Shown here in pieces: positions 14,177 to 45,463 of a DNA stretch of 64,000 bases. Both the position numbers and the translations under genes were made by a program. Origin of the DNA: Thalassotalea sediminis (lineage in GTDB: Bacteria > Pseudomonadota > Gammaproteobacteria > Enterobacterales > Alteromonadaceae); contig NZ_AP027361.1 in the NCBI RefSeq assembly GCF_030295915.1, positions 1,674,001-1,738,000 of the forward strand. The letters run 5' to 3'. Each line of letters opens with the position of its first letter. The first letter of the stretch is position 1. The notes under the pieces are model-generated. The model was not told the DNA's origin. It did not search any database and worked only from the letters and a program-made list of their open reading frames with translations.

Positions 14177-14635
14177 ATGATACTTAAACAACTAAGAATA
14201 AGTCGCCATTTATCACAAGAACAATTAGCTCAAATGTCAGGGCTTAATGTCAGAACCATTCAAAGAATAGAAAGTGGTGCAAACGCTAGTTTGGAGTCTC
14301 AAAAATGCCTCGCAGCTGCTCTCGATGTATCAATTGAAACATTACATCAGGAGACTATTATGTTCGATAAAAACTCAGAAAACTGGAACAGTTTGCCGCT
14401 GTTTATGAAAATTTGGTTTGCATTTAACTTTTTACAGTTACGTCCTAAACGCTATACAGCGAAACGTTCAGAAGTAATTTGCCATATCTTTGGCTTTTTC
14501 TTTTGTTTGCTAGGTTTGGTTGATGAAGCTGCATTAGTTGGAGGGCTTCTTTTGTTACTTACAGCATATTTGTTCACCTTTCTTAAATGGCAAGGAGATA
14601 AGTATGGTATATGGTACGAAGAATTAATTGATTAG
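14177..14635 (+). CDS. Cassette 16: XRE-family HTH regulator with C-terminal two-TM domain
   Basis: 152 residues. The N-terminal ~60 form a Cro/CI-type HTH (LRISRHLSQEQLAQMSGLNV then RTIQRIESG). After a linker, a domain with two hydrophobic helices (about 100-115 and 118-135) anchors it in the membrane, so it is a membrane-tethered one-component regulator. Shine-Dalgarno AGGAG lies seven bases upstream. It has about 100 bp of leader with a dyad, unusual for a cassette gene and suggesting its own promoter. The stop TAG is formed by the edge of the adjoining MITE. Confidence 0.8.
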   Translation: MILKQLRISRHLSQEQLAQMSGLNVRTIQRIESGANASLESQKCLAAALDVSIETLHQETIMFDKNSENWNSLPLFMKIWFAFNFLQLRPKRYTAKRSEVICHIFGFFFCLLGLVDEAALVGGLLLLLTAYLFTFLKWQGDKYGIWYEELID

Positions 14636-14901
14636 AGCGTGTTGATCTTTCATGTTTACTTTTGCCGCAAATTGTTTGGTATTTATACAAGGCAGCGCTT
14701 ACGCCGTGTGGTTATTCTACTCCAGTAAAGCGTTAACACAGTATAAATGCCAAACAGATGCAGCCCGAAGGGTTCACCTAAACGCCTCCTGCTCTTTGTT
14801 ACTTGAACTAACCATAGCATGACTATGCAATAATCCAAGTGCCGCGATCAGAAGACGTTTAATTTGAACAAAATTCAAACAGCAAAGATCAACACGCTCT
14901 A
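14633..14901 (+). mobile_element. MITE-like element copy 1 (18-bp perfect terminal inverted repeats)
   Basis: 269 bp bounded by TAGAGCGTGTTGATCTTT (14633-14650) and its exact reverse complement (14884-14901), consistent with a TA target duplication. No ORF of its own. The interior (GGTATTTATACAAGGCA, GTGTGGTTATTCTAC) is shared with copy 2 at 44488-44656 in the same orientation. TA target and long inverted repeats suggest mobilisation by an IS630/Tc1-type transposase; this is inferred. Confidence 0.8.
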
Positions 14902-44487: not shown

Positions 44488-44656
44488 TAGGGTCTATTGA
44501 TCTTTCGCGTTCATTTTTGCAGTACTTTATTGGTATTTAGGCAAGGCATAGCGATTAATGTGTGGTTATTCCACATGAAAAAGCAATAACGACGTATAAA
44601 TAACAAAAAGCGTTTAGTTCGAACAAAATTTAATTTTGAAAGGTCAACAGCCCCTA
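44488..44656 (+). mobile_element. MITE-like element copy 2 (diverged)
   Basis: 169 bp with 19-bp imperfect terminal inverted repeats (44488-44506 and 44638-44656, 16/19 matches) and flanking TA. Shares termini and interior (GGTATTTAGGCAAGGCA, GTGTGGTTATTCCAC) with copy 1 at 14633-14901; shorter by about 100 bp. Its right edge supplies the TAG stop of ppsR. Confidence 0.75.
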
Positions 44657-45463
44657 ATATTTATAACGTTGTAAACCTGTCTGTGCGAGTATTTTAGCCG
44701 TGATTTCTTCAACCGAAAGTTTAGTGGTGTTGATATAGGGCACCTTTTCCTTTTTATAAAGATTCTCTACTGCACGTACTTCCATGCGGCATTGTCTCGC
44801 TGAAGAATACTTACTGTTTGCCATTCTACCATCGCGAATGTCCATTAAGCGCTGTGCATCGATTGTTAAGCCAAAAATTTTCTTTTTATAAGGTTTTAAA
44901 AATTCAGGTATTTTTAACGCATCCATATCTTCATCAATAAAAGGGTAGTTGGCCGTTTTAATACCGTATTGTAACGCGAGATAAAGCGAGGTTGGGGTTT
45001 TACCAGAGCGAGAAACGCCAACAAGAATTAAGTCTGCTTGGTCATAATTAGTAATATTTGAACCATCATCGTTTGCTAACGAATAATTAACTGCATCAAT
45101 ACGATTATCGTAGCTATTTTCATGGATGCTATGTGTTCTATGCGCTTTGGGCTTTGCAGAAATTCCAAGTTCCTGCTCTATTGGCGCAATGAAATGCTCA
45201 AGGAAATTGTAAATAATGCCATCACAACTATCGATAATTTCTCTAATTTTAGGATTAACAAAGGTGTGGAATACAAGAGGCTTTTCGCCGGTTAATTTTG
45301 CTGCACGATTTATTTTTTCTTTTGCAGCAATTGCTTGTTGCTCTGATTCAACGAAAGCAATAGTGTCGTGATTAAACTCCATTGGAAATAAAGATAAAAG
45401 TGCGTGGCCAAAAACTTCCGACGTTATAGCAGTACCGTCTGAAATGTAAAACGCTGTTCTCAT
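44654..45463 (-). CDS. ppsR: PEP synthase regulatory protein (kinase/pyrophosphorylase)
   Basis: 269 residues, full-length DUF299/PSRP. It inactivates PpsA by ADP-dependent phosphorylation and restores it by phosphorolysis. The P-loop VGVSRSGKTPTSLYLALQYG and the C-terminal NTTKLSVEEITAKIL are visible. It is divergent from ppsA, the standard arrangement. Its TAG stop is formed by the edge of an adjoining MITE. Confidence 0.95.
   Translation of the reverse strand: MRTAFYISDGTAITSEVFGHALLSLFPMEFNHDTIAFVESEQQAIAAKEKINRAAKLTGEKPLVFHTFVNPKIREIIDSCDGIIYNFLEHFIAPIEQELGISAKPKAHRTHSIHENSYDNRIDAVNYSLANDDGSNITNYDQADLILVGVSRSGKTPTSLYLALQYGIKTANYPFIDEDMDALKIPEFLKPYKKKIFGLTIDAQRLMDIRDGRMANSKYSSARQCRMEVRAVENLYKKEKVPYINTTKLSVEEITAKILAQTGLQRYKY

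Follow-up and report, generated by a model that had tools for sequence, protein, structure and literature searches.

The DNA analysed here is a stretch of 64,000 nucleotides of Thalassotalea sediminis (contig NZ_AP027361.1, positions 1,674,001 to 1,738,000), referred to below as the window. It contains two copies of a MITE, each located directly at the end of a gene. Copy 1, taken with both copies of its TA target, occupies positions 14633–14901 (+ strand, 269 bp, TAG...CTA), with the element proper at 14635–14899. Its left terminal inverted repeat, GAGCGTGTTGATCTTT (14635–14650, + strand), is matched perfectly by the right one (14884–14899, − strand). To the left lies the gene for an HTH_3 (XRE-like) regulator of 152 aa (14177–14635, + strand), and its TAG stop (14633–14635, + strand) is composed of the TA target and the first base, G, of the element. 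Copy 2, which belongs to the B subfamily, is found at 44488–44656 (+ strand, 169 bp with both TA copies, again TAG...CTA; element proper 44490–44654). It adjoins ppsR (44654–45463, − strand), which encodes a complete pyruvate water dikinase regulatory protein of 269 aa; the TAG stop, read from 44656 to 44654 on the − strand, is likewise formed by the TA target and the first base G of the copy. Both stop-bearing reading frames are real genes, the first an HTH_3 regulator and the second PpsR, of which residues 2–266 match positions 4–270 of the 272-position model. An earlier note on this DNA had observed that the TAG at the edge of each copy is the in-frame stop of an intact neighbour, and this holds for both copies. 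It had also proposed that the edges supply these stops; instead, they preserve them. When the element is removed and one TA is kept, the joined flanks already read TAG for copy 1 and TAA for copy 2, so a stop was present before insertion. The further point that insertion at the TA of a stop leaves the protein intact is borne out, as the stop stays TAG.

The family has the features that define MITEs, being short, without a transposase, bounded by terminal inverted repeats and present in many copies. In the T. sediminis genome (G000; 3.90 Mb, one contig), BLAST gave 23 matches for copy 1 and 21 for copy 2, the closest other matches to copy 1 having 96–97% identity. The end pattern, with three mismatches or fewer, was matched 66 times in this genome and eight times with the reversed control. 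Elements were delimited in the window and 40 further stretches of G000 and in 60 stretches of a second Thalassotalea genome (G002), 2.0 Mb in total; the presence of end matches was the reason for choosing 24 of the 40 stretches and 58 of the 60. Pairing of ends delimited 76 elements (24 in G000 and 52 in G002) and left 30 unpaired ends. The usual element sizes are 66, about 169–178, 266 and 269 bp. Of 118 genomes of the host's family, 86 hold end matches, and the reversed control gave one match in each of three genomes. Second replicons carry relatives with approximately 69–75% identity, nine records being from Pseudoalteromonas, two from Catenovulum and one from Vibrio; none was found in phages. 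At L257 (G001), the left flank and the element are the same as those at G002:C1:1887038 and the right flank differs, a possible rearrangement through MITE copies. At the place of a 66-bp element of G000 (G000:C1:702425-702490), the G002 sequence (L179, 86% identical) reads GATTAGTGCGTACTAATC, a short palindrome that resembles an excision footprint.

The target of the MITE is AYTART, with the core YTAR. This motif was read from the joined sites of the 76 elements, in which TA is present at 70 and YTAR at 64. Among the 70 TA sites, a pyrimidine precedes TA in 68 and a purine follows it in 66, and the outer positions are symmetric (A before, T after). All 31 TA sites of the 33 elements in G044, a genome of another genus, are YTAR, as are 26 of 33 in the Pseudoalteromonas and Vibrio elements. 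The evidence that TA is duplicated comes from tandem elements and from a related IS. Two adjoining pairs of elements in G044 share a single TA, as would be expected of a TA that belongs to the target and not to the element; such side-by-side elements are seen at L315 (near record position 1054041) and L303 (near 342202). Every insertion restores a YTAR on either side, so that elements can stack. For the IS, the IS-bearing intergenic sequence of Pseudoalteromonas sp. HL-AS1 and the IS-free one of Bsw20308 have the same length once a single TA is retained, as counted by eye. Alignments with empty sites of the MITEs in relatives crossed a junction in four cases and then in two, none of them decisive. 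A duplicated TA is well supported: each insertion leaves YTAG...CTAR, and a TAA or TAG stop approached from either side becomes TAG with the protein unchanged. A duplication of four bases, as listed for IS701 in the accessible part of PMC2266710, was rejected, as the tetramers on the two sides were seen by eye to differ.

The HL-AS1 IS is 882 bp in length, has MITE-like ends and is inserted at a YTAR site behind a gene of the YebC/PmpR family. Its transposase (WP_309169457.1, 253 aa) is annotated as IS5-family and matches the NCBIfam profile NF033580 (IS5) with 256.6 bits (cut-off 110), as well as DUF4096 and DDE_Tnp_1. The 18-bp ends of the MITE and this IS are near-identical, and the two interiors gave no alignment. 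Judged by sequence likeness, the MITE ends match those of an IS5-family IS, and the relation would run through the ends only. Elements of 883 bp bounded by the terminal inverted repeats and holding a DDE_Tnp_1 frame are present in two further genomes (three in G099, one in G066). Among 59 searched genomes of the host's family, six gave a match to the transposase at 1e-30, and this search detected no close one in G000 or G002. Versions of 1.46–1.56 kb in G002, carrying an IS4-family transposase, were considered as the autonomous parent and rejected by their coordinates. They contain an independent IS4-family IS with its own ends, inserted inside MITEs next to CCCNNNGGG. This IS (approximately 1277 bp, 392-aa transposase) has 18 near-identical full-length matches in G002 and none in G000. 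It lies inside these MITEs in eight of 14 examined copies in G002 (L200:7874-9428; L195, L201, L203, L207, L213, L216 and L217), and the other six copies have two recurring flanks (four and two). The sequence CCCNNNGGG adjoins its left end in all 14 copies and recurs at the right end of the one copy inspected. The IS4-family IS seems to home on the internal palindrome of the MITE.

The coincidence of target and stop codon follows from the genetic code. Within a reading frame, TAR is found only as TAA or TAG; a YTAR element that hits codon position one of a gene must therefore sit at its stop. Both ends of the element begin with G, and a gene running into it from the left or the right thus has its TAR changed to TAG. 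The next frame meets a further stop, TGA, 10 nt into the element from its end, and four neighbouring ORFs end on it (elements 430647, 794658 and 2648613 and the unpaired end 2622980). The gene calls gave 1754 stops; TAA and TAG make up 1587 of them, 780 with a pyrimidine directly in front. Full-length models indicate that several stop-hit proteins are complete to the C-terminus, the clearest cases being glutathione reductase (Gor), uracil phosphoribosyltransferase (Upp), HldE and glutaminase.

Stop overlap was counted with genes called by a dicodon model on the joined sequences, YTAR insertions being compared with all YTAR sites of the same stretches. G000 and G002 together have 64 such insertions, 60 non-coding and four coding, although 79% of the target weight is coding. 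Sixteen of the 60 non-coding insertions are at stops (5.6 expected, 2.9-fold), so that the overlap exceeds chance in the stretches of these two Thalassotalea genomes. Six lie 1–10 nt downstream of stops (2.5 expected) and six at 11–20 nt (3.2 expected). Further away, the numbers are five at 21–40 nt (5.1 expected), six at 41–80 nt (7.1), four at 81–150 nt (8.0) and eight beyond 150 nt (12.9), with nine in divergent regions (15.7 expected). Under a null that weights sites by the target matrix, 17 of 65 are at stops against 9.1–10.1% (P 5e-5 to 2e-4). The two genomes share one orthologous site, at a CNNM-family gene (90% protein identity); counted once, it leaves 15 of 59 at stops (P 2.6e-4). 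The count covers paired YTAR elements; three of the 30 unpaired ends, which stand outside it, are exactly at stops (1797241, 73652 and 1765086), as is one (742005) of the 12 non-YTAR elements among the 76, also omitted. Chance or an artefact of gene calling could be suspected from two examples in one window, and some stop-hit ORFs are small and doubtful, for example that at G000 1048563 (73 codons). However, the excess grows with a higher gene score cut-off (13 of 62 at stops with high-scoring genes only, 2.3 expected, 5.7-fold), which largely refutes such an origin, and several stop-hit proteins match complete families; we regard it as extremely improbable.

The count was repeated in other genomes. 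G044 has 33 paired elements, of which 31 are YTAR (25 non-coding, six coding), its 23 unpaired ends being left aside. Four are at stops (1.6 expected, P 0.07) and three at 1–10 nt (0.8 expected); convergent regions are not enriched (two, 5.1 expected). The Pseudoalteromonas/Vibrio set comprises several stretches of three Pseudoalteromonas records, a single stretch from P. piscicida and another from a Vibrio, counted as paired elements with one duplicate removed. All 26 YTAR insertions among its 33 elements are non-coding; there is no excess at stops in this set (1 of 26, 2.0 expected), and two are at 1–10 nt (1.0 expected). The difference from Thalassotalea (16 of 60 versus 1 of 26) is nominally significant (Fisher P 0.017), and the tolerance of gene ends is not universal, with Pseudoalteromonas/Vibrio lacking the stop excess. 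G001, G003 and G004 (23 distinct elements) add five further independent non-coding YTAR sites, two at stops. When the three main sets are pooled, with rounded expectations, 20 of 110 insertions are at stops against approximately 9.2 expected (P 7e-4). In Thalassotalea and G044, stops and the 10 nt that follow them are over-represented about 2.7-fold, with like ratios at stops (2.8-fold) and at 1–10 nt (2.7-fold). Of the 31 insertions in the pooled sets that fall no more than 10 nt from a gene end, 20 are at stops against an expected 68%, so the excess is tied to the immediate gene end, with stops taking their proportional share.

The earlier note had suggested that selection or targeting may favour stop codons. 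The excess itself stands in Thalassotalea (15–16 of approximately 60), but targeting specific to stops is not required to explain it: the first 10 nt are equally enriched, and Pseudoalteromonas/Vibrio show no excess. Stop codons might still be favoured as such, either because they are targeted (for example, via terminating ribosomes or transcripts) or because a landing there is neutral and is selected for. G000 alone leans to this, although with a small sample: eight of 20 insertions are at stops and none at 1–10 nt (0.9 expected); the stop excess in G000 and G002 together (P approximately 1e-4) and its rise to 5.7-fold with high-scoring genes also point this way. Against it, G002 has eight of 40 at stops and six of 40 at 1–10 nt (1.6 expected), stops near gene ends do not exceed their share, and Pseudoalteromonas/Vibrio show no excess; we consider it quite unlikely.

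We favour, with a probability of about 0.75, the view that the stop overlap is a by-product of the YTAR target and of selection against damage, and not of stop-codon recognition, in a MITE with ends that match an IS5-family IS. An IS5-type transposase would move the MITEs in trans, as suggested by the ends common to both. Insertions in reading frames and promoters would then be purged, and the first nucleotides behind genes would tolerate them. Within this tolerant zone, stop codons account for half to two thirds of the YTAR sites, a high share explained by the fact that TAR in frame always means stop. The YTAR motif and the tolerance of gene ends suffice, and recognition of stop codons is not needed. 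The main cause of the stop excess would be the YTAR target, of which the TAR half is a stop in frame, combined with purging from coding and promoter DNA. A stronger version, in which YTAR and the terminal G make the lineage harmless at stops from either side, the internal TGA catches another frame, and the lineage is specialised as a gene-end parasite that in some hosts lands on stops more often than sequence would predict, is unlikely in our judgement. The hairpin might also be retained as a 3′ structure useful to the upstream gene. Enrichment at 0–20 nt behind genes is consistent with this, and the RNA of copy 1 is predicted to form one end-to-end hairpin from the stop codon (−93.7 kcal/mol, z −8.2), which might affect mRNA stability or termination. 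However, the predicted fold of copy 2 is weak (z −2.7) and any MITE is expected to fold self-complementarily, which makes retention for mRNA protection or termination a very unlikely reason for the excess. Under the favoured by-product reading, a transposable element whose target motif doubles as a stop codon can spread at the ends of genes with proteins unbroken, and stop overlap of such elements alone is no evidence of stop-codon targeting. The ends in 86 of 118 host-family genomes provide a large countable data set for separating targeting from selection.

The portion of the open-access literature available to us yielded no report of this MITE family or of stop-neutral YTAR insertion, which is weak evidence of absence. 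Several known systems are comparable. Rickettsia palindromic elements sit in frame within ORFs, a location different from that of the MITE. Like it, they are short non-autonomous bacterial repeats by description, and a review (PMC10969869) names them. The HL-AS1 IS shares the ends, the YTAR site and the TA duplication with the MITE, but is about 882 bp, carries a 253-aa transposase and has an unrelated interior. IS711 (IS6501), an element of Brucella, belongs to the IS5 family. With a YTAR target consensus and a duplicated TA, it is the nearest known target match, by description and not by sequence; the available text of PMC2266754 contains no occurrence of 'stop codon'. The ERIC/IRU (RU-1) elements of enterobacteria, again likened by description from the accessible part of PMC2759123, are small palindromic repeats that end in TA and duplicate a TA. 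In one gene-end case, the normal stop is removed and residues are added, whereas the Thalassotalea MITE keeps the stop. The MITE copies are a known type of element in which target and stop codon neatly coincide.
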